Shown here: positions 5,401-21,463 of the stretch, piece after piece | Layout of the letters: every line of letters begins with the position of its first letter | Numbering within the stretch: position 1 is the stretch's first letter | IMG/VR virus record: IMGVR_UViG_3300025128_000393 | Location: 1 to 21,868 of that record | DNA: 21,868 nt | Origin: a virus | Reading direction: 5' to 3' (one strand) | Notes under the pieces: generated by a model | What the model saw: only the letters and a program-made list of their open reading frames with translations | Database searches by the model: none | What the model was told of the DNA's origin: nothing | Program-made: the position numbers and the translations under genes

Positions 5401-6851
5401 TCTTCTGGTTTAACATTTCTTTTAACTGCTTCGGTAGCTACTTCTCTATCAACAAAATAAGTTAAAGCTTTTTCTTTTTGAGCTTTTGCTGCGGCGTTTC
5501 TAAAAAAAGGAAATATAGATTGATCAAAATGTCTATAATCTGCTGTTAAATAATTACCTATTTCATTTTGGAGTTTAATAGATAGATCTGATTGTAAATT
5601 TTTTTGTAGTATTCTGCCGGTCATGTTATCCACACCGTTTCTCATTTCTAGTATTATAGTTTTAAATTCGTCAGCTGTTTCTTTATTAGTAGTTTTTTCT
5701 ATATTTTTTAAAAATGTATCCATTTTACCACCAGCCGTAATTTGATAATCATCAAGTCTAAACAAACCATCGGGTCCCTCTGGTGTTGTTAATTTTCTAA
5801 AACCACTAGAACTATCAAACTTTAAAGTTTTTCTAGCAGTGTTTACAATTCCAGATTTTTTTTCAATTAAATTAGATAAATTAGCACTATCTGGTTTTTT
5901 ACCAGGTACAGGTTGCATTATTTCTTGTATTTCTTTTAAAACACCTTCTTCATTTTTAAAGATACTTGTTTCTATTTGTGGTACTACTTTTTTCACAGAG
6001 TCAAATAACTTATCTACTCTAATTCCTGCTTCAAATTTAGCTGCTTCTGCAGCATCTAATCCAGCTCTTTTAATTTCAAAAGTAGCTTCATCTAACATAC
6101 CTGCTTTACCTAAACCAAACTTAATATATTTTTCATATATTTGTTTTAAATCGTTTTCAGCGTATCTTTGTAAACCAGTTTTAGATGGTCTTCTAATTGC
6201 AGATATACCTTTACCTGCTCCAGCTATTCCTAAATTAAATAATGATCCATCTACACCAAATTTTAATCTATTAGTTAATCTACGATATGCTTCTGCTCTT
6301 CCTTCTTTTTGTTCAGTGTCCATCATAGTAATTGCAAAAGGTTCTAAAGAAGTGCCTCTTAACATATCACCTAATGTTCCAATATCCTCATCAGATACAA
6401 TAGCTTCTCCAGCTGCAGCTCCACCTATACCTGCTGCTAGTTGTGAGTTTTTAACGTTATTTATTATTTTTCCAAACCTACTTAACTGTGCATAGTTACC
6501 AACTTTTCTAGCATCGATTGCTTTTTTAGCTAAACCCATACCTATCTTTGCACCTTGAAATGCAGGTACACCTATTTGTGCTAGCGCTTGAGTAATTTTA
6601 CCAACAGTTCTAGCTTCGGCTTCATCATCAAAAGGATTAAGATCATCAAAAAATTTTTCAACATCTGTAGCTAAATCAGTATTACCAACTAAATCAATTA
6701 ATTCTGCTCCTAAAGATACAAATCCTTTTGGAATATTTATAAGTCCAGTTGCAACTCCAGCTAAAGCTGATTCAATAAAACCAGTTTCATCTGCTTTTTT
6801 CTTTTTTGCTGTTGCTGTAGGTCCAAAAGCTTCTGCTTCAGATACTGGCAT
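2466..6851 (-). CDS. Giant internal virion / DNA-ejection protein candidate
   Basis: This 1461-aa protein is the largest in the window. It has small-residue-rich hydrophobic segments near residues 25-55, 135-155 and 200-215, long charged helical regions, an Ala/Gly-rich block around 764-785 (LSPITHARNLISAGAFAAAN), and near 982-1027 a block containing VPNYSYVGRTGQ and SPFGNFIAFPLEILRT. The last two resemble sequences I know from very large uncharacterised proteins of marine podoviruses; no enzyme motif (lysozyme or transglycosylase) was seen. Length, composition and position after a gp10-like tail gene fit injected proteins such as P22 gp16/gp20 or T7 gp16, which form a conduit across the host envelope; this is inference, not homology shown here. 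The start is firm: the ATG at 6849-6851 follows the SD AGGAGGG, which overlaps the stop of the upstream gene. Confidence 0.75.
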   Translation of the reverse strand: MPVSEAEAFGPTATAKKKKADETGFIESALAGVATGLINIPKGFVSLGAELIDLVGNTDLATDVEKFFDDLNPFDDEAEARTVGKITQALAQIGVPAFQGAKIGMGLAKKAIDARKVGNYAQLSRFGKIINNVKNSQLAAGIGGAAAGEAIVSDEDIGTLGDMLRGTSLEPFAITMMDTEQKEGRAEAYRRLTNRLKFGVDGSLFNLGIAGAGKGISAIRRPSKTGLQRYAENDLKQIYEKYIKFGLGKAGMLDEATFEIKRAGLDAAEAAKFEAGIRVDKLFDSVKKVVPQIETSIFKNEEGVLKEIQEIMQPVPGKKPDSANLSNLIEKKSGIVNTARKTLKFDSSSGFRKLTTPEGPDGLFRLDDYQITAGGKMDTFLKNIEKTTNKETADEFKTIILEMRNGVDNMTGRILQKNLQSDLSIKLQNEIGNYLTADYRHFDQSIFPFFRNAAAKAQKEKALTYFVDREVATEAVKRNVKPEEVLKDIDFMNATRKKGDDTIARYLTARNLDDIDAIRAGQTDIKPGDAQEALTGKPRNKAEAKLEDEVIKVNPEILRNKKLNEFEEIIYGRITDPKHTYLSSISKMASLNHTLEFIDDVGKIGSKKGPNKFVFGKTELGEEKIFKDLLNIPDEIIINPSTGKKIIKPLNDAQIKQAKALLQKTGRTIDDYRAAKDLVDNGDALNIEDAFIKLRDPKQFKKVEPVSKSKQLIGLNPLEGKYIRAPIYDDLFETTVQFLNTNKIGTVYKYGVLAPKAISQITKTILSPITHARNLISAGAFAAANGAIVPTGGDFSSLLPKSLGGKVFETAGTGQGLLETAKRLSYGRVRGTLTKEDIALYKRLLRAGVVQTQVQAGELKRLGLDFYKNIFVDPAKTETKAFRGFLGGFQKGKKIYSKIQDAYVAEDDYWKTITWGLERNRYEGIFANKGINANNFQDALQGKTVSEDVAKYLQGGVKRNYDAVTKTYKGTYEEFMDEFAANLSRNLVPNYSYVGRTGQALRLSPFGNFIAFPLEILRTGSNIIEQALKERASGIPEIVKLGNKRLLSFGLTVGGIPKISQETFKAMHDVSDEEMEALRRVVPEWSKNSTLLPMGRDKNGYLKYVDFSYSNAYDTLIRPFNTVFNSIADGKTDETSLKESLGAGLQESAVELLKPFTEESIFTEALVDSTIRRGIGRDGRRVWSEADDPFIKIVKGVGHISKSFEPGSYRQLTRIGNSLLGKTDPKYGKEYNLFDELPGLAGFGIKQSDPERSLIYKTSEFGSNLKKSENLFTSPLLRGGRVSPEDIINGYQYSEQARFQTLKKMAKDIDAMKKLGMPDYKIRKELEKRKGLSKTIISDLMLGVYTPKRPSDFFTTRMGEINRDLNKKEGTSIPNPYIQALPTLNGIINKNRRIDLIDGDLSMSDLMFERTSPQTLSPMSNTNSVINSQITGTTPVLAASGENQALTKPLEIRDVFNRGIV

Positions 6852-6855
6852 AATA

Positions 6856-6862
6856 CCCTCCT
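6856..6862 (-). promoter_or_regulatory. Strong ribosome binding site of the 1461-aa gene
   Basis: The minus strand reads AGGAGGG four nucleotides before the ATG at 6851, and it overlaps the TAG stop (6861-6863) of the 458-aa gene. It is the best Shine-Dalgarno match in the window. It fixes the start of the giant protein and suggests efficient translation reinitiation. Confidence 0.75.
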
Positions 6863-8237
6863 ACGTTTCTGTTGTTGGTATTGGCATTATAAATTCTGGC
6901 TCTCCTGGTTTATATAATTTTCCATCTACAAATCTTACAGGTTTACCATCTTTTGGTTGGACATAATATTCATAATTAGTTCTATCCTCAGGGTCTTTAG
7001 GTAGTGCTGCATCGTTTCTTGAAAGAACTCCTATAAGGTCTTCAAATTTAGTGCCTTCTAATTTTTTCATTTCTCTTTTAAAACCATCTGCACTTACCCC
7101 CATCTGCTCTCCTGTTTTTCTATAAAATTCATCGTCAGCTCTCATTTCTGCAGAACTCTTTTTAGGTTTTGTAATAAGCTCGTATGCTTCTTCAAAACTA
7201 TCTAATCCATATTCTTTTTGAATAGCTTTAATATATTTAATTTGTTCAGGTTCTTTCATGTCGTCAAATGTTTTTTGTAGAGCTAATAGTTTAATATCTT
7301 TGTCTCCTTTTCTTTTTTCTGATAATATTTCTTCAGCGCCTTCTATTCCTTTTTGACCTTCTCTGGCTATCGTGCCAAGTAAATCTCCACCAGGCGCACC
7401 TGCTACACCAAGTCCAACTTTTGCAAGTTGTAAGTACAAAGATTTTTTAGTATCTTCATCTGCGTTACCCATTACTTGATCTATAATACCTTTGTTCTCA
7501 TCATACACGTTCATTAAAGATTTTTCTGGATCTTCTTTTTTATCTGGTTCTGGAATGTTTATGATATTTGTTTCTTTCTTTTTAGTTCCTTTAATTCGTT
7601 TACCTGTTTTTGCATCAAATTGATCTTCTAAACCTAAATCTTTTAATCTTTGTTCTTTTCCTCCTCTAGGAAAAAAACCATATTTTTCTCCTTGATCTTT
7701 TTCCCTCAACTCTTTTGAAAAGTCTATAAACTCATCTGTAGATGTTTCATCAAATAAAAATGGATCTGCTCTAGTTGCTTCTTTTCTAAAAGCATATGCT
7801 TCTGGAGTGTCAGTTGATTTTGTTACAAAATCTGCTAATTGAGCTATACCTGTTCCTGTAGCTGCAGCCGCAGCATATGGGCTAAATCTTGATAGTCCAG
7901 CTAGTCTAGCTGCTCCTGGTATATTTTTTAAACGTCTTAATATTCTAGCAAATCTACCTGTTCCACCTGGAGGCACTGGAGGTCCTTGAGGAATTACAGC
8001 AGGTACTCCTGGAGTTGTTACAGGAAGTCTAATAGGAACACCTCTTGTAGAATAAGGAGGTCCTTGCATAATACCACCTCCTCTTACAAAAGTTCCTTCT
8101 TGAAAACCAGCTCTAGGTGTAAGACCTGCATCAGGAATTATTCCTGTCATAATACCAGTCATACCACCACCCATATATTTTTCTCTTTGGGCCATGCCAC
8201 CTTTTCTAAACATCGGTCTTGTTAAAGTTCTAGACAT
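6861..8237 (-). CDS. Putative structural/ejection protein, Gly/Pro-rich N-terminus
   Basis: This 458-aa protein starts with basic, Gly/Met-rich sequence (RPMFRKGGMAQREKYMGGGM), then a Pro/Val/Gly-rich linker (about 60-95) and a short Ala-rich segment (about 105-140, including FSPYAAAAATGTGIAQL) that could be membrane-active. The rest is a charged, mostly helical C-terminal half. The first residues resemble the leader of many uncharacterised marine phage virion proteins; I cannot name a family with a known function. Its ATG overlaps the TAA of the 301-aa gene as TAATG, so it is probably translationally coupled. Its stop overlaps the ribosome site of the 1461-aa gene. Placement in an uninterrupted run of four Ala/Gly-rich proteins supports a role in the internal core or ejection apparatus. 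A scaffold-like role cannot be excluded. Confidence 0.68.
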   Translation of the reverse strand: MSRTLTRPMFRKGGMAQREKYMGGGMTGIMTGIIPDAGLTPRAGFQEGTFVRGGGIMQGPPYSTRGVPIRLPVTTPGVPAVIPQGPPVPPGGTGRFARILRRLKNIPGAARLAGLSRFSPYAAAAATGTGIAQLADFVTKSTDTPEAYAFRKEATRADPFLFDETSTDEFIDFSKELREKDQGEKYGFFPRGGKEQRLKDLGLEDQFDAKTGKRIKGTKKKETNIINIPEPDKKEDPEKSLMNVYDENKGIIDQVMGNADEDTKKSLYLQLAKVGLGVAGAPGGDLLGTIAREGQKGIEGAEEILSEKRKGDKDIKLLALQKTFDDMKEPEQIKYIKAIQKEYGLDSFEEAYELITKPKKSSAEMRADDEFYRKTGEQMGVSADGFKREMKKLEGTKFEDLIGVLSRNDAALPKDPEDRTNYEYYVQPKDGKPVRFVDGKLYKPGEPEFIMPIPTTET

Positions 8238-10858: not shown

Positions 10859-11022
10859 TATGCTAAAAAGAAAGCCTCCGCTTCTGACTCATCTTTCAAA
10901 TCTTTTTGATAAGATGTGTTTAATTTTTGTACAATACTATCAACGTCTCTAACAAACGATTGTTGTATTTGTTGATCGTATTCTCTATTTGGTTGTGTTA
11001 ATGATTGTACTATTCTAGCCAT
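10858..11022 (-). CDS. Conserved 54-aa phage protein
   Basis: A 54-codon frame exactly fills the gap between the 714-aa and 113-aa genes. It begins MARIVQSLTQPNREYDQQIQ, continues with a charged amphipathic helix containing FVRDVDSIVQKLN and ends EAFFLA. It overlaps both neighbours by TAATG junctions (upstream stop 11024-11022, own stop 10860-10858). The start motif SLTQPNREYDQQ and the RDVD..VQ.LN..YQKDL pattern match a small conserved protein I recall from marine cyanophages and pelagiphages; its function is not known to me. It is predicted soluble, helical and acidic at the C-terminus. Precise fit, coupling on both sides and the recognisable sequence make it a real gene despite its size. 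Position between tail proteins suggests an assembly or tail-associated role. Confidence 0.85.
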   Translation of the reverse strand: MARIVQSLTQPNREYDQQIQQSFVRDVDSIVQKLNTSYQKDLKDESEAEAFFLA

Positions 11023-13166
11023 TATCTTCTTCCATCCGGTTGTACATCCAATCTAAAAGTACCAAGTTTCCAGTGTTGAGTAACACCAGTGTTATCTACT
11101 TTTAAAGATATAGCTCTTGCTCTAGCACGAGTGTCTATTTTAGTGGTAGTTGTTGAAGATGTAAAAGGTCCTAAAGATGAACTTGCTTGTGCATCTGTTG
11201 GATAATTTTTTAAATTTAATGTAATTCTTGCATTTCCTGTTTGTGTTAAAAAGTCAGGTATAACTCTTCTTATTTTCATCATAAATTCTCCATCCCCTTG
11301 TTGTGGAATAGGTGATTGACCAATATCAAAATCTCCTGATTCAATACTAGCTTGAATAGCAGTTGTTGCGCCTGCTTTAATTTGATTAGTTCCAGTTTCA
11401 TGTTCATAATAAGTTGTACAACCATCAGTGTTTCCAACTGTTGCATCACTTGTAGAGCTTGAATCATATTCAGTACCGTGTGGTTTACCAAATATAGCTG
11501 AGTCTGCCCAAGTAGATCTGGCTAATGAACCTATAGTCCATATAGGCCGCTGACCGCCTGAGTCCATGTAATTATATGTAACATTCCTAGAATTAGATGT
11601 AGCACCACTTCCTGGGTAAAACCAACTTACTTCACCAAACAAATTATTTAATCCTGCATAAATATGTTGTCTAGGCACATCTGCTAAACCATCATAAACA
11701 AAATCTTCAACTAAACATGGTAGTGATTGTAGTTGTCCAGTGTATCTAAAAAAACCATTTTCTGACATCCAATATGCAGAACCATCAACCTCAACTGCTG
11801 CGTTCTGTCCGATTAACCCACAGTTAGTTCCAACTTGTTGAAACGAGAAAGTAAATGGTGGACCAACAAATCTCATAATAAACAACGCTGTATCAGTCCA
11901 AATATAAATTGCATCACGACCTCTAATTGCTCCAACAATTCTTGTACCATCTGCAAGTCTTTGTGTACCCGCAGTGTTAATTGAAGTTGGAGTCCAATCA
12001 GTTAATGATTCTTGATCTGACCATCTAATATACATATCGTCTTGTGTAGAAGTTGTTCCAATAGTCGTTTCTGATCCAAAAGAAATTAAGTGTCTGTCTG
12101 GTGTAGAAACTAAAGTAAATTGTGATGCAGTAGGACAACCACTTATAAGTGTTGCTCTAGTAGAAGTTGCACCTGTTGCATTAGAGTTCCATTCAAAACT
12201 TGAACCGTCTGCAATAGTTGCAATAAGTTTATTACCAAAATTATCTAACGACCACATACCAGGAGCTGTTACAATGTCACCTGTTTGTGATGCACCCCAT
12301 TTAGTATAGTCTGATGCATTAGTTACAGTAGCTGCATCACTGTGCGATGCTGCTGTTGTGTTATCTGATCCTCTAGTTAAACCTGATAAAGTTCCTGTAC
12401 CAGTTGTATTTGTTGTATAAGCAATTCTTTCATCGTCGATTACAACAGTTCCTGATGCAGGAAATCCGTTTGAGTCATCAAGAACAATACTTGTTGAACC
12501 TGAAGTTAAAGCTCCATCTAAAGTAGATGTAACTGCACCCAATGCAGTACCACCCCATAATCCAAGACCCCAACCAGCAGCTGACTCTTCAACTGCAGGT
12601 CCAATTGAATAGTAGTGTTGAACTCTTATTCCACCAGATGTTGAAGCACCTGATCCCGATTCATTCGACCCCATTTCAATTGTAATTGTTGTTGAAGTAG
12701 GGACGGTTGCAACCATGAATACTTTATCATCAAAATCACCAGAACTAAAATTAGAATTAGTAATAGCGGTAAAATTATCTAACTTAATAATATCGTATTG
12801 ATTAATGTTATGAGCAGATGCAAACGTAATCGTAACTGTAGCGTCACCGTTTGTTGTTGTAAATGCGTTTGTTAATGTTGTTGTAGCTTTAATAGGAGTA
12901 ATGTCATAAAATGCACCTCCTGAATATACATATAAAATTCTGTTTGTACCTAATGCTGAATATTTAATACCATCTGAATTAACAAATTGGTGCATAGCAG
13001 TTGTTCTGCCAGTTAAAGTAATATCTCCTAACTGTGCCCAACCACCTATTTTTTCAGGTGAACCATATCTAAATCTTATATTATCACCATCAACCCATTG
13101 GCCTTCGCCACCTGTTGCTGTAACTTGTTTATTAATCCCAGGTTGAAATCTTAATTTTTGTAGCAT
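11022..13166 (-). CDS. P22 gp10-like tail / packaged-DNA stabilisation protein
   Basis: This 714-aa protein starts with FQPGINKQVT, then EGQWVDGDNIRFRYGSPEKI and GGW. This N-terminal signature is typical of a broad phage family annotated as packaged-DNA stabilisation or tail accessory protein, related in role to P22 gp10. Such proteins sit under the portal and close the channel of short-tailed phages. Residues about 85-290 contain Thr/Ser-rich beta segments that look inserted (TTLTNAFTTTNGDATVTITF; a repetitive region with SGSTSIVLDDSNGFPASGTV). Beyond about 300 the sequence suggests a beta-propeller-like fold with repeated W/G-rich blades (MYIRWSDQESLTDW, DAIYIWTDTALFIM, YWMSENGFFRYTG). The ATG at 13166 lies 15 bp after the preceding gene. 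The tail role is well supported by the N-terminus; exact equivalence to gp10 is inferred. Confidence 0.85.
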   Translation of the reverse strand: MLQKLRFQPGINKQVTATGGEGQWVDGDNIRFRYGSPEKIGGWAQLGDITLTGRTTAMHQFVNSDGIKYSALGTNRILYVYSGGAFYDITPIKATTTLTNAFTTTNGDATVTITFASAHNINQYDIIKLDNFTAITNSNFSSGDFDDKVFMVATVPTSTTITIEMGSNESGSGASTSGGIRVQHYYSIGPAVEESAAGWGLGLWGGTALGAVTSTLDGALTSGSTSIVLDDSNGFPASGTVVIDDERIAYTTNTTGTGTLSGLTRGSDNTTAASHSDAATVTNASDYTKWGASQTGDIVTAPGMWSLDNFGNKLIATIADGSSFEWNSNATGATSTRATLISGCPTASQFTLVSTPDRHLISFGSETTIGTTSTQDDMYIRWSDQESLTDWTPTSINTAGTQRLADGTRIVGAIRGRDAIYIWTDTALFIMRFVGPPFTFSFQQVGTNCGLIGQNAAVEVDGSAYWMSENGFFRYTGQLQSLPCLVEDFVYDGLADVPRQHIYAGLNNLFGEVSWFYPGSGATSNSRNVTYNYMDSGGQRPIWTIGSLARSTWADSAIFGKPHGTEYDSSSTSDATVGNTDGCTTYYEHETGTNQIKAGATTAIQASIESGDFDIGQSPIPQQGDGEFMMKIRRVIPDFLTQTGNARITLNLKNYPTDAQASSSLGPFTSSTTTTKIDTRARARAISLKVDNTGVTQHWKLGTFRLDVQPDGRR

Positions 13167-13181
13167 ATTAAACTCTATTTA

Positions 13182-13700
13182 TTATGCGGATACCCAAGCT
13201 GTACCATTCCAATCGTAAATTGTTGGTGTTTCCGCGTTGTCGTTTGATTTTATTGCCTCCCAACCTTTAGTATTATCAGAATTATATTTAGTTTCATTCC
13301 AAGCAGTTATGTATCCCCATACAGGTGGATCTTCGCCATCATCAATTACTGATGGATAAGTTATTGGTGCTTTCCAATCATCACTACCATCTAGTGACCA
13401 TGAAGCATAAGGTTGTGGGCATATAAATTTGTCTTTTGATGCATCGTATCTATATCCAATACCTGCATACTGTTTTCTAAAACTATTACTATAAGAAGTT
13501 TGTTTAAATTCTGTATTTGGTTTTTTAAAAAAATTTTTACACCATGTTTCTCCATCAACATGGCAATCATTATTTCCTAATGTGCCACCTCCTGCTGATA
13601 TATCATCTGCTACAACTGTAACTTGTTTAACTATTAAATGGGTATCAGATGTAAATCCTGTTGGATCTGTTTTTGACTCTAATTCTGCAAAGTGTGCCAT
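13182..13700 (-). CDS. Conserved virion-associated protein (cyanophage/pelagiphage type)
   Basis: This 172-aa protein begins MAHFAELE and contains the conserved core FKQTSYSNSFRKQYAGIGYR, then YDASKDKFICPQPYASWSLD and repeated tryptophan-containing short beta strands (WKAPITYP, VWGYITAW, WNGTAWVSA). This pattern is very common in T4-like and T7-like marine cyanophages and pelagiphages, where it is encoded near tail genes and left as hypothetical. Three W-rich repeats near the C-terminus look like small beta-hairpins. The ATG at 13698-13700 follows a good SD (AAGGAGT, 13713-13707), one of the few strong sites in the block. It sits between the oxygenase cassette and the gp10-like tail gene. Identity as a known but uncharacterised family is confident; function is unknown. 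Confidence 0.82.
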   Translation of the reverse strand: MAHFAELESKTDPTGFTSDTHLIVKQVTVVADDISAGGGTLGNNDCHVDGETWCKNFFKKPNTEFKQTSYSNSFRKQYAGIGYRYDASKDKFICPQPYASWSLDGSDDWKAPITYPSVIDDGEDPPVWGYITAWNETKYNSDNTKGWEAIKSNDNAETPTIYDWNGTAWVSA

Positions 13701-13737: not shown

Positions 13738-14373
13738 TTACTTTTTAGATACTGTAAACCCTTTGTACCATTCAGGTAAACCTAGAAATGGTCTTTTATC
13801 AAACTCATTTTCTTTAGCTATTTTAGATCCTTTACGATTATAATGTAGAAACACCTGTCCGCAATCTTTTCCTTCAAATTCTTCTCGCCAATGTTCTAAA
13901 TCACAGCCAGAATAAATTAACATATCTCCTGGTCCTAAATCTATTTTAATACCAGCTTGACCTCTTTTGCCTGTTGGGTCTAAATATATTGGCCATGGGT
14001 CACCACCTAAGTTTAATGTAGTGGATATTTCACATGAATATCTGTCTTTGTGTCTAGCTAAAACATCTCCTTTTTTATAAATTCTTGCATAAGAATAGGT
14101 TTCAGATAATTTCATACCTGTATGTTTTTCCATTACAGGCTTTACTTTTTGTAATAAAGTTTCCATAACTATATCTCCATAATGTGCATAAGTATTGGGC
14201 GCTTGTGGATCATTCCATCTTCCCCAATATTCAGTAAAAGGTGAAATATATTTTTGATCAAATAAAAATTTTGCTACTTTTCTTTTATTTAAAAAATAAG
14301 AATAAGCAAAATCTGCTATCTCTTTTGATACAGCTTTTTTTAATACGCTGTATTTATTTTTTTTGAAAGACAT
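13738..14373 (-). CDS. 2OG-Fe(II) oxygenase, phage type (211 aa)
   Basis: This protein has the double-stranded beta-helix signature of 2-oxoglutarate/Fe(II) oxygenases: the iron ligands are H108 and D110 in LARHKDRYSCEISTT, with distal H161 in GCDLEHWREEF. Between them lie GGDPWPIYLD and IDLGPGDMLIYSG, typical of the minor and major sheets. The end of the fold is GQVFLHYN, where many relatives have an arginine that binds 2OG; here no obvious basic residue occupies that place, as in related cyanophage proteins I recall. It couples 2OG decarboxylation to hydroxylation of an unknown substrate. The gene overlaps the 3' end of the fusion gene by 20 nt and precedes the 172-aa virion gene by 37 bp. 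Enzyme family is well supported; the substrate is unknown. Confidence 0.87.
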   Translation of the reverse strand: MSFKKNKYSVLKKAVSKEIADFAYSYFLNKRKVAKFLFDQKYISPFTEYWGRWNDPQAPNTYAHYGDIVMETLLQKVKPVMEKHTGMKLSETYSYARIYKKGDVLARHKDRYSCEISTTLNLGGDPWPIYLDPTGKRGQAGIKIDLGPGDMLIYSGCDLEHWREEFEGKDCGQVFLHYNRKGSKIAKENEFDKRPFLGLPEWYKGFTVSKK

Positions 14374-15832
14374 TTAATGCTCCTTTAGGTATTGCTTGAC
14401 AGTTAAAATGTATAAATCTAAATGGCTCATATCCCATATCTACTACATATTGATGCGGCATATAAGATGGAAAAAATATCATTTTTCCAGGGTTTGCTTC
14501 ATAACTTATTTGATGACTTGCATAAGTTATTTTAGTTGGATATTTTTGAGGTAAAAGATTCATCATATTACCTGGTCTTGGGTCTTCAAACATAGGCTTT
14601 GATGTTTTTTCACTGCCTTTTAAAAAGTAAAAACCAGATATATGTCCATTCCAATGAGTATGTAGTGTATGGTGTCCTCCTCCATCTTTAGCAAATTCTT
14701 GTACCCACATTTCTGTAGTAAATACTTGATATTGAGTTAAATCAAAGCCCATCTCATTTAATAAATTATGAGATGTTGCACCTACATAATTTTGTAATTC
14801 TAAAAAATTAGGATCATCAATTAAAGTGCTTGAATGAAATACGTGACCCATATCTCCTTTATCACCAAATTTTTTATTTCTTTTATTAATATCTTTTTTT
14901 AAATTTTTCTTAGCTTGCTTAATATACTTATCAGATGCTTTATTTAAATCTTTAACAAAACTTGGTTCGTCTGCAAACCATATGGGACACTGAAAATAAT
15001 TTTCTCTGTTTAATTTTTTTGGAAATGCTTTAGCACTTTCACATGATATCTTATCAAACTCTTTTTGAGTCTTTACTTTTCTTGCTTTTTTTTGTTTCTT
15101 TTTCATTACATACACCTCATATGTTTTACCTGTAAGCAAACTTCTATACTCATCGTTAATATAAATTTCCCTCAACGTTTTATTGTTCCAAAACATATGT
15201 TTACTTATGGCACATCCAACCCCCACATTATTACCTATATCCTTGATTTTAATTATTTCAAAATATCTTTCAAATATACTTTTATTGATAGATAAATCAG
15301 AAGAAGAGTGGATTAAAAAACCATCTTTTTTAAGTAATCTAACAGCTTGTTGGCAATATTTTTCCAAAGGCTCAAAGTATATTTCTGCTTCAAGGCAGGT
15401 GATTATATCAAATTTATTGTCTGCTAAAGGTATATTAGTAGCACTGGCATTTAAAAAATTAACATTACTATCTCTTTTTGAGGCATGTTTAATATGGTTT
15501 GGGTTTAAATCTACTCCAAATACAGATTTAAATTTGTAATAATCTTTGTAAAAAGATGCTCCACCACCTTGTCCACACGCTACATCCAATAATTCTATAT
15601 TTTTATTGTTTATATCAATACCTGCTGTTTCTAATAAAACATTGTATAGATTTACTTGATAAGTCCAAGGTTTCCATTTACTAGATAAGTTTAAAGGACC
15701 ATTAGTAGGCATATTATCATCATCTAAATAGCAATAGCCATCATTCATAAACAAAGCAATCCCGAGTATATTAAAATCATCATATCTCTTAATTAGTTCA
15801 AATTCTTTTTTGGTCAGTTTTATCTTTTTCAT
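14354..15832 (-). CDS. Fusion: SAM methyltransferase + 2OG-Fe(II) oxygenase-like domain
   Basis: This 492-aa protein joins two enzymes. Residues about 55-180 are a class I SAM methyltransferase: motif I LLDVACGQGGGASF (81-94), acidic D108 in FGVDLNPNHI, then ATNIPLADNKFDIITCLEAE and LLKKDGFLI. The GGGAS and EAEIYF pattern is closest to small-molecule or lipid methyltransferases of the Methyltransf_11 kind. A lysine-rich linker follows (about 243-260). Residues about 278-482 resemble the TIGR02466-type 2OG-Fe(II) oxygenases: NYFQCPIWF start, H391-T-H393-W-N then SGFYFLKG, FEDPRPGN, GKMIFFPSYMPH with distal H460, and R472 in FRFIHFN. The ATG overlaps the upstream stop by 4 nt. A second in-frame ATG at 15106 has its own SD-like GAGG. 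The fusion and family calls are strong; the substrates are unknown. Confidence 0.86.
   Translation of the reverse strand: MKKIKLTKKEFELIKRYDDFNILGIALFMNDGYCYLDDDNMPTNGPLNLSSKWKPWTYQVNLYNVLLETAGIDINNKNIELLDVACGQGGGASFYKDYYKFKSVFGVDLNPNHIKHASKRDSNVNFLNASATNIPLADNKFDIITCLEAEIYFEPLEKYCQQAVRLLKKDGFLIHSSSDLSINKSIFERYFEIIKIKDIGNNVGVGCAISKHMFWNNKTLREIYINDEYRSLLTGKTYEVYVMKKKQKKARKVKTQKEFDKISCESAKAFPKKLNRENYFQCPIWFADEPSFVKDLNKASDKYIKQAKKNLKKDINKRNKKFGDKGDMGHVFHSSTLIDDPNFLELQNYVGATSHNLLNEMGFDLTQYQVFTTEMWVQEFAKDGGGHHTLHTHWNGHISGFYFLKGSEKTSKPMFEDPRPGNMMNLLPQKYPTKITYASHQISYEANPGKMIFFPSYMPHQYVVDMGYEPFRFIHFNCQAIPKGALNVFQKK
15104..15118 (-). promoter_or_regulatory. Possible internal translation start for the oxygenase half
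   Basis: Within the fusion gene the minus strand reads GAGG (15118-15115), eight nucleotides, then ATG (15106-15104) at residue 243. This sits exactly at the boundary between the methyltransferase domain and the lysine-rich linker. Initiation here would make a free 250-aa oxygenase. The site may be chance, because it also encodes YEVYVM, but its position is striking. Confidence 0.35.
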
Positions 15833-16461
15833 TTAAAAGGCCATCCTAAATTCCATATTACTAAACTATATCTCGATCCTTTTTTAACGGGGCATACTCT
15901 GTGCCACACAAAAGAAGGAAACACCACTAAAGATCCTTTAGGAAGTATATCCTTACATTTTATAGTCTTCTGTTTTTTATCAGAATCCATATCTCTAAAA
16001 TCAAATTCTAATTCTCCTCCAGTGTAATCTTTTTCACCTTCGTTTAAAGAAACTGTAACAGATAGTTTTCTAATTTTTCCATTTGACTGATCTCCTTCTT
16101 GTCTTTCATAGGGTTTGGACCAACTATCGCGATGCCAATCATAATACTGTCCTTTATTATATTTTGTAAATTGACAAGGTTCAGACCAATCCCATTGAAA
16201 ATTCCAATTAGCAGAATTATTTGCTTTTTGCACATATGGTTGAATTTCTTTGTAAATCCAACGATCACTCATCCATACAATATTAGAATCTCTTTTCTTT
16301 TTTAAATCTTTAATTTGTTTTTTATTTAAATTTTTTGTATTACTAACACCTCCCGTAACCGCCATTTGGTCTTGTAAAGATTTTCCATATTTTATAATGT
16401 CATCACAAAGTCTGTGAGGAATTACTGATTGAAAATACCAATAATAATGATTTAAATTCAT
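15829..16461 (-). CDS. 2OG-Fe(II) oxygenase, prolyl-4-hydroxylase-like (210 aa)
   Basis: This is a full-length small oxygenase with all expected catalytic residues. H110 and D112 lie in YYDWHRDSW and distal H187 in FPSFVWHRVCPV; R197 in GSRYSLVIWNLG is placed to bind the 2OG carboxylate. A KLSVTVSLNEG strand and YTGGELEF turn, hallmarks of the prolyl 4-hydroxylase/PKHD-like group, lie between them. It needs Fe(II), O2 and 2OG; the target is unknown and could be a protein side chain or a small molecule. The gene lies 4 bp after the 160-aa gene and overlaps the fusion gene by ATGA. Its leader is purely A/T with no Shine-Dalgarno sequence, suggesting low or coupled translation. Enzyme assignment is strong. 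Confidence 0.9.
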   Translation of the reverse strand: MNLNHYYWYFQSVIPHRLCDDIIKYGKSLQDQMAVTGGVSNTKNLNKKQIKDLKKKRDSNIVWMSDRWIYKEIQPYVQKANNSANWNFQWDWSEPCQFTKYNKGQYYDWHRDSWSKPYERQEGDQSNGKIRKLSVTVSLNEGEKDYTGGELEFDFRDMDSDKKQKTIKCKDILPKGSLVVFPSFVWHRVCPVKKGSRYSLVIWNLGWPFK

Positions 16462-16465
16462 ATAA

Positions 16466-16948
16466 TTAAAAATAATTAAAATTAATTACATACCTTTCTT
16501 TTCCATCAGTATTAAATTGTACTTTGTGGTTTATCATAGAATCAAAGATAACTAAGGTATTTTCTATTCCTTTAACTTTTTTACCATTTTCAAAAATGGT
16601 TGTAGCATTAGTAGTGTTGATATAAAATAAAGCAGTTTTACACGGGTATGTTTCATCCACATGAAATCGAGAACAAACTTTTTCTTTTTTAGGTAGATTA
16701 AAATTTATTCTAGATAAAATTAATGCTTTATAATCTAAATGCTTTTTAAAATAATCAGGTATTATATAATAAAATTTTGAATTAGGGTTAGATTCTCTAT
16801 ATAAATAATGTTGAAAAAGAAATCCATCTGAACTTTTTCCGTGAGTTAATTTTGGTTTATAAAACCAAGGAAAAATATCAGTAGTAACTGCTTCTTGTAT
16901 GTGTTTTAATTGTTCTTCTGTTAGAATATCTTTCTTAATTTCAAACAT
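16466..16948 (-). CDS. Small 2OG-Fe(II) oxygenase-like protein (160 aa)
   Basis: This compact protein carries an iron-site pattern: H96 and D98 in SRFHVDETYPCK, distal H141 in DSMINHKVQF, and R152 in ERYVINFNYF as probable 2OG anchor. ALFYINTTNATTIFENGKKV and NTLVIFDS, between them, fit the strands and turn of the jelly-roll core. Similar short proteins occur in T4-like marine phages. It is shorter than the usual 190-220 aa, lacking much of the N-terminal helical support, but the core appears complete. It is the first gene of the oxygenase cassette and lies 46 bp after the glycine-rich protein gene; the gap is A/T only, with no clear ribosome site or terminator. The enzyme call is reasonably strong, the substrate unknown. 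Confidence 0.82.
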   Translation of the reverse strand: MFEIKKDILTEEQLKHIQEAVTTDIFPWFYKPKLTHGKSSDGFLFQHYLYRESNPNSKFYYIIPDYFKKHLDYKALILSRINFNLPKKEKVCSRFHVDETYPCKTALFYINTTNATTIFENGKKVKGIENTLVIFDSMINHKVQFNTDGKERYVINFNYF

Positions 16949-16994: not shown

Positions 16995-18035
16995 TTACGA
17001 AATAGTTAAACAACCATTTGCTGTAAATGTAGCCACCTTATCGTTAGCGGGACCTACACAAGATGTTACTGACCCCCCTGGAGTTACTGATACAGTTGCA
17101 CAAGCAGGGACTCTCACAGCTACAAAACCTGGTCCACCACTTCCAGCGTGACCTGGAGTTAAAGAACCTCCAGCGCCATAACCGCCGCCTCCGCCACCAC
17201 CTCTATTAGTAGTTCCTGCTGTACCTGCAGCACCTCCTGGAGCACCTGCTCCACCTGTTCCACAAGGACTTCCAGCTGCAGCGCTGTTTACATATGCACT
17301 GGCAGCACCACCTCCGCCACCTGCGTAGCTAACGGCACTTCCTGTAATAGCGTTTGGATTACCAGCTCCACCTCTTCCAGAAGTTGTTCCTGGTGCGTTG
17401 TCAGCAGGTTTAGGTGGTTTTTCAGAAGCTCCACCGCCTCCCCCAAATGCACTTGGGTTTGCATAACTTGGAGATCCTGTCGGCCAACTGTTTGGTGCAC
17501 CATCATAACCTTCAACTGGATCATAACCTCCAGCATTACCAGATCCTCCTGCTCTTTCACCACTAGCAGGGCCAGGTCCTTGACCTCCGCCTCCACCAGA
17601 GCCTCCACCAAGACCACATCTAGTTGGTGAAGGGGCTGAACCACCACCTCCACCGCCACCACCTCCAGTGGCAGTAACTAAACAACCAAGACTTGAATTT
17701 GCTCCTGAATTTCCTCTTGTAGTTCGAGCAACAATAGCACCACTACCGCCGCCTCCAACAACTACAGCATAAGTTCCTGCAGCAATTGATAAAGCTGCAC
17801 TTCGAGATGCACAAGGTCCATATCCAGATGCTCTATAACCTCCAGCACCGCCACCTCCAGCACCACCAGAGCCTCCACCAGCTATTACTAAATAGTTTGC
17901 AGCATATTCTGCTGCTGCCGAAACTCCAACGCCAAATCCTAAAATTTGGTAACCAAAAGATTTGCCTCTATTTTGTGGTTTTTTTGAACCTTTACCTTGT
18001 GATTCTAAATTAAAAAAATTATTTAAATCTTTCAT
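16995..18035 (-). CDS. Glycine-rich tail-tip / adhesin-like protein
   Basis: This 346-aa protein contains about 100 glycines, mostly in runs (up to nine) between residues 49 and 305. The N-terminal region (about 12-36: GKGSKK, SFGYQILGFGVG) resembles a leader seen on other marine phage tail proteins. ANYLVIAGGGSGGAGGGGAG opens the glycine-rich domain, as in Gly_rich_2-type proteins. The C-terminal 40 residues form a Thr/Val-rich beta segment ending NGCLTIS. Seven cysteines are spread through it, unusual for a phage surface protein. Polyglycine-II sandwich domains are known in phage adhesins such as S16 gp38, which bind receptors at the fibre tip; a similar role is inferred. It lies 5 bp after the fibre gene and directly before the oxygenases, which makes it a candidate substrate for them. 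Confidence 0.8.
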   Translation of the reverse strand: MKDLNNFFNLESQGKGSKKPQNRGKSFGYQILGFGVGVSAAAEYAANYLVIAGGGSGGAGGGGAGGYRASGYGPCASRSAALSIAAGTYAVVVGGGGSGAIVARTTRGNSGANSSLGCLVTATGGGGGGGGGSAPSPTRCGLGGGSGGGGGQGPGPASGERAGGSGNAGGYDPVEGYDGAPNSWPTGSPSYANPSAFGGGGGASEKPPKPADNAPGTTSGRGGAGNPNAITGSAVSYAGGGGGAASAYVNSAAAGSPCGTGGAGAPGGAAGTAGTTNRGGGGGGGYGAGGSLTPGHAGSGGPGFVAVRVPACATVSVTPGGSVTSCVGPANDKVATFTANGCLTIS

Positions 18036-18040
18036 ATTTA

Positions 18041-21000
18041 TTACGCATCGTTAGCAGCATCAGTTGTAAAAAATATTTTAATGCCATGTAATCTCATATC
18101 ACCATCCATATCGTCATTACCATCAGATACATCTCTACCAATTCTAAAATAACAAAGATCATTATCTGCTGGAGTTCCTGCAATTGTTACTGCACCACTT
18201 TCAGCAGTAACATTTAATTCTTCAACGGCTCCTTGTGCATCATCTGTAACAACTACAGCTGTTCCATAAGCAACATCAATAGTTTCATTATCATTCATTG
18301 CTACACCCTCTAATGATATAGCAACACCAGTAGTGGCCGCTATACCAGACCAAAAACATTGAAAAGTAACTGTACCTAAATTCCATGACTTAGGAAAAGC
18401 CACAGCAAATTGAGCAAACTCGTCACTATCTTTATCAAAATCTAAAACATTCATATCAGGTCTACCTGAAGTTGTTTCCACTGTTGCTAAAGTAGCACAA
18501 CCATTTGAAGTTGTAGGTGTCATAGCTTGTGCGGGAACCCATATAGTTTGTTTTCCTGCTTCAGCTAATGTTCCTACACCATCTAATTTATTTAATTCTG
18601 CTGCTGTTGATGTAACATTAGTTCCACCAATATCTAAAGTTGTCATTTGAACTTCGCCTGCAACAGTTAATATAGCTGAACCTAAAGTTAATAAATCTGT
18701 ATCACCTCCACCACCTATTGTACCACCGCTTTTAATTACAAGATCATCTTTAACTGTAAGAAGTCCAGCAGAAGATATTGTTAATGCATCATTAGTTGAA
18801 GCAACACCAATAGTACCACCATCTTTAATCATTAAATCATCTGCAATAGTTAATAGTCCAGCAGAACTTAAACTCATTTTTGAAGATGCAGCTTCGCTTG
18901 CTCCAGTGTGAAATTCTAATTTTGTAGCATTATTAGAAGAACTAAAGTCTCCTTCTGAAACTGCTTGAATTGCAGCGGCTACCAAAATAGCATCTGTTCC
19001 AGTCCCTTCATCAGGAGCTTGGAATCTAATAGCACCCATAACATCATTTGCTGCCATGTCTGTTTCACCAGTTTGTAGTGTTAATACAATTGGTTTGTCA
19101 TCAGCTGTAGCTGTGTGTTTTAATTTTAATCCAACATCAGCGTCATGTGTAAGTGTAATTTCTGAATCAGCACCAAAAGTTAAAGCTGCTGCATCTGAAA
19201 TTAAACCAAGATCATCACCAACAGTTAAATCTGTTGCAACCTTAACAGTTGTATCATCATCTAAAGTTAATACAGTTGTTCCATCGTATTGTTTAAATAT
19301 TAAATCATCTGTATCAACTTCTAATTTAATTACTTGAGCACCTGCAGTGCCATCCATATCTAATGTTAATTGTAATGTTCCTGCATCTTTAAATTCTACA
19401 TTTCCACCTGCTGCATCTAGAACAATATCTGCTGTTGCATCTAAAGTAATATCAGCGCCAGAATCTATTTCTGCAATTATAGGAGTAGTTAAAGTTTTGT
19501 TTGTTAAAGTATCTTCTGAAACAAGAGATACTAAAGTTGAACTAGCACCAGCTGGTAAAGTTAAAGTATTTGTAACACTAGCCGAGTGAGGTTGTGCAAT
19601 AACTATTTGACCATGTGAATTAGCTTCACAATTAAATTGTATAGCACCTGAATTAGTATCACCTTTAATTGTTACATGGCCTGTACCTTTTGCTACTATT
19701 TCAAGATCAATATTAGAATCACCACCTGTTGCTGATAATAGTGGAGCACCACCTGTTGCAGCATTTGTAATATCAAATTGGTTAACTGCTGAACCTGTTG
19801 TTTGAAATATAATTTGTTCATTACCATTTTCATCTGCTATAAAATGTGCATCATCAATTAAAATATTTGCAGAGTTAGTATCTAAATCACCACCTAATTG
19901 AGGTGAAGTATCTTCTACTATATCTGCTATTGCACCAGATGTAGCAAGTCCTGCTACAATTGCTGATCGTGCAATTTTTTTAAGTCCACCACCCGAAGTA
20001 TCTACTGCTATAAAAACATCATCATTAGCAACTGTAGATATTTCTGATAAATCACCTGCGGCAATTGAATTAAAGTTTGTACCATCTGCAACTAATAAAT
20101 TACCTGCAGTGTTTGTACCCATAGTAATATCATCACCTGATACTGTAAGATCTCCTGATATAGTTAAATTACCACCAGATGATAAAGACATTTTTTCAGC
20201 TGCTGCTTCTGAAGCACCTGTTTTAAAACTTAATTTTGTAGCATTTGAAGAAGAACTAAAGTCACCTTCAGAAACTGCTTCAATACCTGCTGCAACTAAT
20301 ATTGCATCTGTTCCCGTTCCTTCATCAGGTGCTTGAAAATCTATTTTACCAATTACATCATTTGCTGCAATATCTGTTTCCCCTGTTTGTAATGTTAAAG
20401 AAACAGGTTTATCATCAGCAGTTGCTGTATGTTTTAAAGTTAATCCTGTATCAGCAACGTGTGTAAGTTTTATTTCTTGATCGTCACCAAAATTTATAAC
20501 AGCTCCATCTGCTAAAAATAAATCTGAAAATTCTAATGAAGTAGTACCAAGAGTGGCTCCATCAGATGCATCCGGAACAAAAGCTGTTGTTGCTGTAATA
20601 GTTGTTGCTTGAAAAGTTCCATTTGTTGTTAAACCTGTATCTGCTGCGTGAGTAACAGTTATATCTGAATCTGCACCAAAACTTAGTACAGCAGAGTCAC
20701 TTAATAATTTAACATCATCACCAAATACTGCATCTTTTGCTACAGATAAACCACCATCAGTTTGTAATGATCCATCTGTTGTAGAAGTTGCTTCAGTAGT
20801 ATCATCTGTTTTTACAATACCACTAGCTGTAACTGTTGTAGCAGTTAATGCTTGTGCAGCAATCGTGCTGCCTGCTTGTGCAGTAAAAGTATTTGCAGTA
20901 AATTGAAAATCATCAGCTCCTGCAATTTTAATATCTATTTGGTCATCAGTATCTGCTGTAATACTTGTATCCGCATCAGCATCTAAAATTAATTCATTAC

Positions 21001-21463
21001 CATCTAAGTCATGATCTCCAGTAGATGCAATACCTGTATCAACTAAATTTGGATTAGTTGCATGATCAGCTGTTGCATAAACAAGTTTAGTTCCTTTGTC
21101 TGTTGCAGCAAACGTAACTGAACTTCCTGAACCAGTAGCATATTTAAATTGAACTGTATAAGCACCAGATGTGCCATTAACTAAAACATACATCTGTTGA
21201 ACATCTAAAGGAATTGTTACAATTTGATTTCCAGTAATTGTTCCAGTAAATTTTATAATTCTATGCGCAAGAACTGCATCTACTGACCCATCAGAAACAG
21301 ATAATGTTGTTGTATCAGCTGAACCCCCTATATCTTGTTCTATATAACCACCAGCTATTTGTTCTACAATTTGTAAATTGGTGTTGGTAGTTGTTCCCCA
21401 TGTACCGGCATTTTCGCCGGTTGTCATTAGTTCTGTTCCAAGACCTGTAAAACTTGATGCCAT
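18041..21463 (-). CDS. Tail fibre / receptor-binding protein with internal repeats
   Basis: This 1140-aa protein has a fibre layout. Residues 1-135 form a conserved base containing FTGLGTELMTTGENAGTWGT and YVLVNGTSGAYTVQF, which I recognise from marine phage fibres. Residues about 135-960 are Asp/Thr/Ala-rich beta repeats with recurring LTISGDL, FGADSEITLTH and ILDADAD-type units. A block of about 110 residues occurs twice (about 321-432 and 759-871; shared EGTGTDAILVAA and SEGDFSSS). Residues about 965-1140 (TIWVPAQAMTPTTSNG to TDAANDA) match a C-terminal domain common on such fibres, likely receptor-binding or trimerising. The ATG at 21461-21463 follows AGGAGAA (21473-21467), overlapping the upstream stop. 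A fibre role is strongly supported by composition and domains; the receptor is unknown. Confidence 0.9.
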   Translation of the reverse strand: MASSFTGLGTELMTTGENAGTWGTTTNTNLQIVEQIAGGYIEQDIGGSADTTTLSVSDGSVDAVLAHRIIKFTGTITGNQIVTIPLDVQQMYVLVNGTSGAYTVQFKYATGSGSSVTFAATDKGTKLVYATADHATNPNLVDTGIASTGDHDLDGNELILDADADTSITADTDDQIDIKIAGADDFQFTANTFTAQAGSTIAAQALTATTVTASGIVKTDDTTEATSTTDGSLQTDGGLSVAKDAVFGDDVKLLSDSAVLSFGADSDITVTHAADTGLTTNGTFQATTITATTAFVPDASDGATLGTTSLEFSDLFLADGAVINFGDDQEIKLTHVADTGLTLKHTATADDKPVSLTLQTGETDIAANDVIGKIDFQAPDEGTGTDAILVAAGIEAVSEGDFSSSSNATKLSFKTGASEAAAEKMSLSSGGNLTISGDLTVSGDDITMGTNTAGNLLVADGTNFNSIAAGDLSEISTVANDDVFIAVDTSGGGLKKIARSAIVAGLATSGAIADIVEDTSPQLGGDLDTNSANILIDDAHFIADENGNEQIIFQTTGSAVNQFDITNAATGGAPLLSATGGDSNIDLEIVAKGTGHVTIKGDTNSGAIQFNCEANSHGQIVIAQPHSASVTNTLTLPAGASSTLVSLVSEDTLTNKTLTTPIIAEIDSGADITLDATADIVLDAAGGNVEFKDAGTLQLTLDMDGTAGAQVIKLEVDTDDLIFKQYDGTTVLTLDDDTTVKVATDLTVGDDLGLISDAAALTFGADSEITLTHDADVGLKLKHTATADDKPIVLTLQTGETDMAANDVMGAIRFQAPDEGTGTDAILVAAAIQAVSEGDFSSSNNATKLEFHTGASEAASSKMSLSSAGLLTIADDLMIKDGGTIGVASTNDALTISSAGLLTVKDDLVIKSGGTIGGGGDTDLLTLGSAILTVAGEVQMTTLDIGGTNVTSTAAELNKLDGVGTLAEAGKQTIWVPAQAMTPTTSNGCATLATVETTSGRPDMNVLDFDKDSDEFAQFAVAFPKSWNLGTVTFQCFWSGIAATTGVAISLEGVAMNDNETIDVAYGTAVVVTDDAQGAVEELNVTAESGAVTIAGTPADNDLCYFRIGRDVSDGNDDMDGDMRLHGIKIFFTTDAANDA
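18850..19190 (-). repeat. Fibre internal duplication, C-terminal copy
   Basis: This stretch encodes the second copy of a block of about 110 residues (LKHTATADDKP, LQTGETDMAANDV, GTGTDAILVAAA, SEGDFSSSNNATKL, KMSLSSAGLLTI). It is near-identical in protein sequence to the copy at about 20165-20500. The nucleotide sequences are diverged at many third positions, so this is an old duplication or one kept by selection. Boundaries are approximate. Confidence 0.8.
20165..20500 (-). repeat. Fibre internal duplication, N-terminal copy
   Basis: This is the first copy of the block (LKHTATADDKP, LQTGETDIAANDV, GTGTDAILVAAG, SEGDFSSSSNATKL, KMSLSSGGNLTI). A partial third echo (FGADSDITVTHAADTGLTTN) lies further towards the N-terminus at about 20630-20690. 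Boundaries are approximate. Confidence 0.8.

Follow-up and report, generated by a model that had tools for sequence, protein, structure and literature searches.

Iron/2-oxoglutarate oxygenase-type genes clustered beside the tail genes of a putative pelagiphage, with a tentative role in virion modification

Why would a virus keep several iron-dependent oxygenases packed together among the genes of its tail? The question is raised by the viral record IMGVR_UViG_3300025128_000393, of which a stretch of 21,868 bases (the window) was analysed. Between positions 13738 and 16948 its minus strand carries four closely packed open reading frames (ORFs), named G1 to G4 in minus-strand reading order. A prediction made earlier from the sequence alone (the original prediction) had placed four consecutive genes of 160, 210, 492 and 211 aa here, and its coordinates and strand are exact. 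The four genes represent four non-duplicate families, and sequence profiles or predicted folds place all of them among the Fe(II)/2-oxoglutarate (2OG) oxygenases; G2, G3 and G4 constitute a fixed core, whereas G1 is accessory. The preferred explanation, held tentatively and at somewhat less than an even chance, is that this operon modifies side chains of the virion's adhesin or tail proteins. The nearest annotated relative of the locus is HTVC033P (78.7% nucleotide identity over 59% of a 4.1-kb query), followed by 023Pt_psg01 and then HTVC023P. As the closest annotated relatives are pelagiphages, the host is presumably SAR11.

The identity of G4 is central to the question, as relatives of this almost always single-copy gene occur in 156 phage records and many are labelled ferrochelatase. 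The predicted structure indicates that G4 is very probably an oxygenase-type protein and not a ferrochelatase. No ferrochelatase model was matched by G4 in Pfam or NCBIfam at E<=1, or by the 39 members of its alignment in Pfam at E<=0.1. G4 passes no curated Pfam cutoff, and a profile of its family searched against PDB sequences gave nothing relevant; hence the assignment rests on fold and motif. The AlphaFold2 model (mean predicted local distance difference test score, pLDDT, 91.2; predicted template modelling score, pTM, 0.87) is a beta-rich oxygenase fold. Foldseek returned 710 PDB matches at E<=0.001, the best 50 of which are all 2OG-type oxygenases, headed by the Pseudomonas putida prolyl-4-hydroxylase (P4H) in its EF-Tu complex (4iw3, E 5e-9). 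With a second aligner, the closest structure by Z is the antibiotic epimerase SnoN (Z 16.4, root-mean-square deviation (rmsd) 3.0, 181 aligned). The iron ligands H108, D110 and H161 are invariant in 39 sequences (the iron-site alignments were built from environmental contigs), and the likewise invariant R163 and Q173 are candidate 2OG-binding residues. On the profiles, and on a predicted fold whose best 50 matches are oxygenases, a true ferrochelatase was judged very improbable. Some records already give the oxygenase name to G4 relatives (S-CREM1, Sf-FP1 and S-SCSM1; 023Pt_psg01 has both names), so that the relabelling has partly been anticipated by annotators.

Similarly, the family of G1 (phrog_274) bears the label 'DNA endonuclease V', and both database labels are very probably wrong. 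G1 passes no curated Pfam cutoff; PF13640 is matched by 16 of 23 sequences (G1 and 22 relatives), and none of the 23 has an endonuclease match in Pfam. The AlphaFold2 model of G1 (mean pLDDT 91.8, pTM 0.88) gave 444 Foldseek matches in the PDB at E<=0.001, the best 50 again all 2OG-type oxygenases, and the second aligner paired it with PHD2 (Z 16.0, rmsd 2.9, 152 aligned). Across 23 sequences H96, D98 and the 2OG residue R152 are invariant and H141 is near-invariant. Endonuclease V, or DenV, was therefore rejected on the profiles and on the predicted oxygenase fold. The best or near-best fold matches of both G1 and G4 are protein prolyl hydroxylases (P. putida P4H, its EF-Tu complex, PHD2). 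G2 passes PF13640 and has invariant ligands (H110, D112, H187) and an invariant 2OG residue (R197); it resembles PKHD hydroxylases (PDB 3dkq; PiuC, 9ghl), with prolyl-4-hydroxylases matching more weakly. Profile, fold and motif thus establish a set of iron/2OG oxygenase-type enzymes, and the predicted folds are oxygenases as the original prediction supposed.

That the genes are not simple duplicates, as was also supposed, is borne out by the lack of any significant profile-profile match in the two pairs compared (G4 with G2, and G1 with G3), on which recent tandem duplication was rejected. G1 and G3 have in common a weak signal that is superfamily-level and confined to the C-terminal part.

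The 492-aa G3 is a fusion. Its N-terminal half is, by profile, a class I S-adenosylmethionine (SAM) methyltransferase, as had been predicted (PF08241, 64.7 bits against a cutoff of 21.2; SAM motif LDVACGQGGG), and its top scores are to fatty-acid O-methyltransferase models. The C-terminal half passes the PF13759 and TIGR02466 cutoffs. An iron site had been expected in each of the four genes; this stands as HxD..H for G1, G2 and G4, whereas G3 has no Asp and shows an invariant H391-x-H393 with H460 where HxD/E...H was sought. The HxH is also present in the aligned stretches of its solved relatives 3bvc and 2rg4, suggesting that HxH...H, and not the textbook set, serves as the metal ligand set of G3; R472 is its likely 2OG-binding residue.

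The methyltransferase precedes Met243 in the same reading frame, and it is at this residue that the unfused relatives of G3 start; the fusion thus seems to have joined a gene lying upstream to an intact oxygenase gene. The ATG of Met243 lies at position 15106 of the minus strand, and the oxygenase half could be made alone from it. An assembly artefact is unlikely because four contigs from several metagenomes carry the fusion, namely the window and contigs L007, L153 and L154, at about 96-97% nucleotide identity across 5 kb. With the methyltransferase half as query, only these three near-identical contigs were recovered, and no close phage relative. The original prediction had made the methyltransferase part of the cassette's pathway; with this half restricted to one lineage, a widespread methyltransferase-oxygenase pathway was rejected.

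How stable is this arrangement? G1 and G2 are separated by 4 bases, G2 and G3 overlap by 4 bases (ATGA), and G3 and G4 overlap by 20. The spacing persists in relatives, with a median of -4 for G2-G3 (n=114) and of -20 for G3-G4 (n=90), and 98% of the 90 adjacent G3-G4 pairs overlap. The median ratios of nonsynonymous to synonymous substitution (dN/dS) of 0.17 for G2, 0.18 for G3 and 0.15 for G4 denote purifying selection and hence real genes; the values of the neighbours are higher, at 0.32 for F5, 0.33 for T10 and 0.54 for the glycine-rich gene (for these genes see Table 1). A scan for promoters and terminators gave counts not above shuffled expectation (43 against 51, and 4 against 4.6).

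Scans of viral contigs yielded about 190 G4 loci, of which 146 remained after removal of G4 at >=95% nucleotide identity; most were picked as best matches to G3 or G4, so that close relatives are favoured. Among the 110 loci with at least four upstream genes, the four genes that precede G4 include G2 in 107 cases and G3 in 102. The glycine-rich gene is found within seven genes upstream in 98 of the 110, and in 103 either it or F5 lies no more than about seven genes away, upstream or downstream. T10 (phrog_3287) is within four genes in 66 of the 84 loci that have two downstream genes. In a deliberately divergent subset of 29 deduplicated loci the figures are 21/24 for G2, 16/24 for G3, 17/24 for the glycine-rich gene or F5, and 14/25 for T10. 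Clusters hold two to seven oxygenases, most commonly three. Hence the cassette described as having four members is in its conserved form a three-gene unit, G1 occupying several slots across loci. A further ORF of 52-59 aa is frequent between G3 and G4 (L001:9595-9753 and many other loci), in the slot taken elsewhere by G1 or a longer gene.

The neighbourhood is as had been described, with adhesin and fibre-region genes upstream and a structural protein downstream; the gp10-like call for the latter agrees with phage Greip, where a relative of F5 (phrog_7759) also precedes a 'gp10-like DNA stabilization protein'. The cluster is kept with the tail-region genes, and podoviral relatives have one copy each of G2 and G4, both in a single cluster, with no scattering seen. 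Distances between loci correlate within the cluster (r 0.73-0.82). The divergence of the cluster also follows that of F5 (r 0.63-0.79), from which F5 and the cluster tend to travel together, and follows less closely that of the glycine-rich gene (0.28-0.40) and of T10 (0.16-0.24), the lowest even though T10 is a close downstream neighbour of G4.

The association extends beyond the podoviruses. In the pelagimyoviruses HTVC008M and Mosig and in the cyanophages S-SM1, S-SSM5 and S-MS29, the same oxygenase families are grouped near relatives of the glycine-rich gene and/or F5. S-PM2 and S-RIM32 show the order short tail fibre, oxygenase, tail chaperone, oxygenase. Likewise, in DSL-LC04, a freshwater phage of Gammaproteobacteria, an oxygenase stands immediately before F5 among lectin genes. 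In S-SSM5 and S-MS29 a NodU-like carbamoyltransferase gene on the opposite strand adjoins the cluster (L204:5617-7281; L233:3163-4794), and tryptophan halogenase genes lie near T4-like clusters (L218:9280-10623, which passes PF04820; L004:18908-20302; L202:1-1373).

Taken as modification of adhesin or tail proteins, the presumed chemistry, including the use of 2OG by G4, and the presumed substrate and timing would be as follows. Each oxygenase would hydroxylate the side chain of an amino acid at the expense of Fe(II)-activated O2 and of 2OG, and the methyltransferase fused to G3 in this lineage would methylate the same substrate. The substrates would be the adjacent tail or adhesin proteins (the glycine-rich protein, F5, the fibre). 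This is the weakest step, and these proteins appear the likeliest substrate because the neighbourhood is constant across podoviruses, myoviruses and two host phyla. Modification before or during assembly could then alter receptor binding or stability. The modified virion or surface molecule first proposed stays conjectural.

Several observations weigh against this explanation. A literature search found no report of hydroxylated phage tail or virion proteins; methylation of virion protein has been reported in another system (PMC13288928). The G4 alignment has no conserved Arg or Lys about 10 residues past the distal His, which leaves its use of 2OG uncertain. The G4 of Syn30 sits among replication genes, T4-like relatives have additional oxygenase copies scattered over the genome, and in three loci the cluster lies on the strand opposite to the structural genes; on the last two counts the 'late unit' of the original prediction fails as a general rule. 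F5 adjoins tail genes in Bellamy, CRP-207, HTVC025P and CRP-143 with no annotated cluster nearby, and is therefore a tail-region protein and not a member of the enzyme set. The distance correlations can be produced by shared inheritance alone, nearness to tail genes may merely mark an insertion hotspot, and the setting of cellular G4 relatives suits a small molecule equally well. As to timing, the paper on HTVC027P, a phage devoid of G2 and G4 relatives, gives none for gp72-gp74 in its text (PMC12753301), and an expression study of a Prochlorococcus cyanophage makes no mention of these genes.

Cellular relatives of G4, which retain the iron ligands, are found inside gene clusters of nonribosomal peptide synthetases (NRPS) in Cyclobacteriaceae and Rhizonema (L223:3-10053; L220:2-8949). 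In Cyclobacteriaceae the order is NRPS, G4 relative, PhyH dioxygenase, NRPS, and in Rhizonema the G4 relative has NRPS-type proteins on one side and a transporter on the other. The relative in an Acidobacteria metagenome-assembled genome (MAG) has among its neighbours a methyltransferase and an oxygenase-tetratricopeptide repeat-glycosyltransferase protein. This setting is a hint to the original function of the family and suggests that amino acids or peptides are tailored, as would be expected with a protein target and with a small-molecule target alike. A separate G4 homologue (60% identity) is on an apparent bacterial chromosomal contig of a Rickettsiales MAG (L209:4992-5705), with RecQ-like and PurB-like genes, identified by eye, as neighbours.

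The main and close rival builds on the small-molecule option. The enzymes might oxidise and methylate a molecule of the infected SAR11 cell, be it a metabolite, a lipid or a glycan of the surface, for example altering the host surface or blocking superinfection. Besides the NRPS clusters, it is favoured by SnoN as the closest G4 structure, by the fatty-acid O-methyltransferase scores of G3, and by the carbamoyltransferase, tryptophan halogenase and glycosyltransferase genes near such clusters. It is nevertheless judged possible rather than likely, as the window shows no biosynthetic scaffold gene, the genes constantly found alongside belong to the tail region, and G1 and G2 resemble protein hydroxylases.

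An extension of virion-protein modification, more doubtful than that rival, would make the cluster a module shared by SAR11 and Synechococcus phages which decorates their own adhesin and tail proteins in the style of modified-peptide natural products. Receptor-binding surfaces would then be diversified chemically and not by sequence, the module comprising several hydroxylases, to which certain lineages add a methyltransferase, halogenase or carbamoyltransferase.

The remaining alternatives are improbable to different degrees. The target could be a protein of the host, for instance a translation factor or a ribosomal protein, whose hydroxylation would steer the infected cell; the EF-Tu-bound P4H at the head of the G4 matches and the dominance of PHD2/P4H folds for G1 and G4 speak for it. 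Still, fold rank is no proof of substrate at 9-18% sequence identity, and the position beside tail genes would be left unexplained, so this stays a fairly improbable reading. It is less probable again that unrelated accessory genes merely gather between the adhesin and nozzle genes with no common pathway. Variable slots filled by G1, the 52-59 aa ORF or other genes, the range of cluster sizes and the three inverted loci would be expected of such a hotspot, whereas the constancy of the G2-G3-G4 order and of the overlaps of 4 and 20 bases, together with the correlated divergence, would not.

Repair or modification of nucleic acid, which Sullivan et al. (2010; PMC3037559) proposed as DNA repair for cyanophage oxygenases and which the 'endonuclease V' label implies, is slightly more improbable than a hotspot. 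The AlkB-type PF13532 is weakly matched by 4 of the 39 G4 family members; against this, the best folds are P4H/PHD-like with no AlkB entry among the best 50 matches, G1 is without an endonuclease-family match, and the podoviral cluster is not beside replication genes. Least probable of all is the published view of metabolic helper genes (PMC9599517, PMC11561400, PMC3037559), in which a ferrochelatase and oxygenases act on iron/haem or on 2OG as a nitrogen signal: the haem oxygenase and PcyA genes after the Mosig cluster accord with it, but the 211-aa 'ferrochelatase' is modelled as an oxygenase fold, carries HxD..H and matches no ferrochelatase model, and several distinct families would be redundant for a mere 2OG drain. 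An anti-defence role was given no weight, the PADLOC matches being limited to a generic CRISPR-associated 2OG model and the methyltransferase domain of mad2. The annotated haem oxygenase and PcyA genes of Pelagibacter phage Mosig come right after its oxygenase cluster (L200:12984-14220).

Clusters of this type are known and widespread, and the cassette is thus less unusual than first thought. Clusters pairing 2OG-Fe(II) oxygenases with a 'ferrochelatase' have been reported in HTVC023P-type pelagiphages (Wittmers et al., 2022; PMC9599517). That study distinguished 2OG oxygenase genes of eight kinds, frequently found together with one or two 'ferrochelatases' and adjacent to them in every case where a 'ferrochelatase' was present, and interpreted them through iron metabolism. 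Cyanophage oxygenases were tabulated earlier, with modulation of 2OG and nitrogen proposed along with DNA repair (PMC3037559); oxygenases and 'ferrochelatases' are enriched in seasonal viruses (PMC11561400). S-SCSM1 has 24 such oxygenases, and according to the same paper the viral functions of these enzymes had not been specifically investigated before (PMC9602691).

The clusters of HTVC033P, HTVC023P and 023Pt_psg01 resemble that of the window in families, in 'ferrochelatase'-oxygenase adjacency and in tail-region location; they differ in that the G3 homologue of the window has a fused methyltransferase, and the partner is taken as a real ferrochelatase in PMC9599517. HTVC008M, Mosig, S-PM2 and S-SM1 also group G1, G2, G3-like and G4 relatives by tail-fibre genes, but pelagimyoviruses and T4-like cyanophages have larger genomes, extra scattered copies, PhyH-type members and nearby halogenase, carbamoyltransferase or bilin genes. 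With the prolyl hydroxylases (P. putida P4H, PHD2) and PiuC the fold is common, as are HxD..H in G1, G2 and G4 and the 2OG arginine in G1 and G2; given the low identity of the fold matches, the prolyl hydroxylase likeness is one of fold alone. The TIGR02466/PF13759 proteins 3bvc and 2rg4 have the HxH motif in common with G3 and differ from it in lacking the fused methyltransferase.

What is new here is the fusion variant, the relabelling of two families and the quantified link to tail genes. Should the 'ferrochelatase' truly be an oxygenase, its published interpretation through iron/haem ought to be abandoned, and the four or more oxygenases would be regarded as a single tailoring unit. With the conserved link to adhesin genes, what was loosely called an 'auxiliary metabolic gene' likewise becomes a testable proposal on chemical modification of the virion, and the phages concerned can be grown on HTCC1062.

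Table 1. Features of the oxygenase cluster and its neighbours in the window
Feature	Position	Strand	Basis
G1, 160 aa small 2OG oxygenase, phrog_274, accessory	16466..16948	-	motif, AlphaFold2 fold (PHD2/P4H)
G2, 210 aa PF13640 oxygenase, PKHD/PiuC-like, phrog_61, core	15829..16461	-	profile, ligands
G3, 492 aa SAM methyltransferase + PF13759/TIGR02466 oxygenase fusion	14354..15832	-	profiles
G3 methyltransferase half, residues 1-242, PF08241 at residues 82-174	15107..15832	-	profile
G3 oxygenase half, residues 243-492, from internal Met243	14357..15106	-	alignment, profiles
G4, 211 aa oxygenase-fold protein, phrog_2954 'ferrochelatase', core	13738..14373	-	fold, motif
Glycine-rich protein, phrog_2295, PF21722-like, putative adhesin, constant upstream neighbour	16995..18035	-	
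F5, phrog_7759, tail-fibre-region protein	13182..13700	-	
T10, phrog_3287 virion structural protein, gp10/nozzle-like, downstream neighbour	11022..13166	-	
Large fibre-like protein, phrog_31104, upstream of glycine-rich gene	18041..21463	-	

Elsewhere in the window, proteins of 619, 1461 and 458 aa (580-2439, 2466-6851 and 6861-8237) have no PHROG match at E<=0.01 and probably belong to the virion interior or to the tail. Phage-like contigs that carry the cluster are also binned in MAGs of unrelated bacteria, namely Maricaulis (L207, L211, L214), Dehalococcoidia (L212), Flavobacteriaceae (L213, L217) and Verrucomicrobia (L216), where they are probably contamination.

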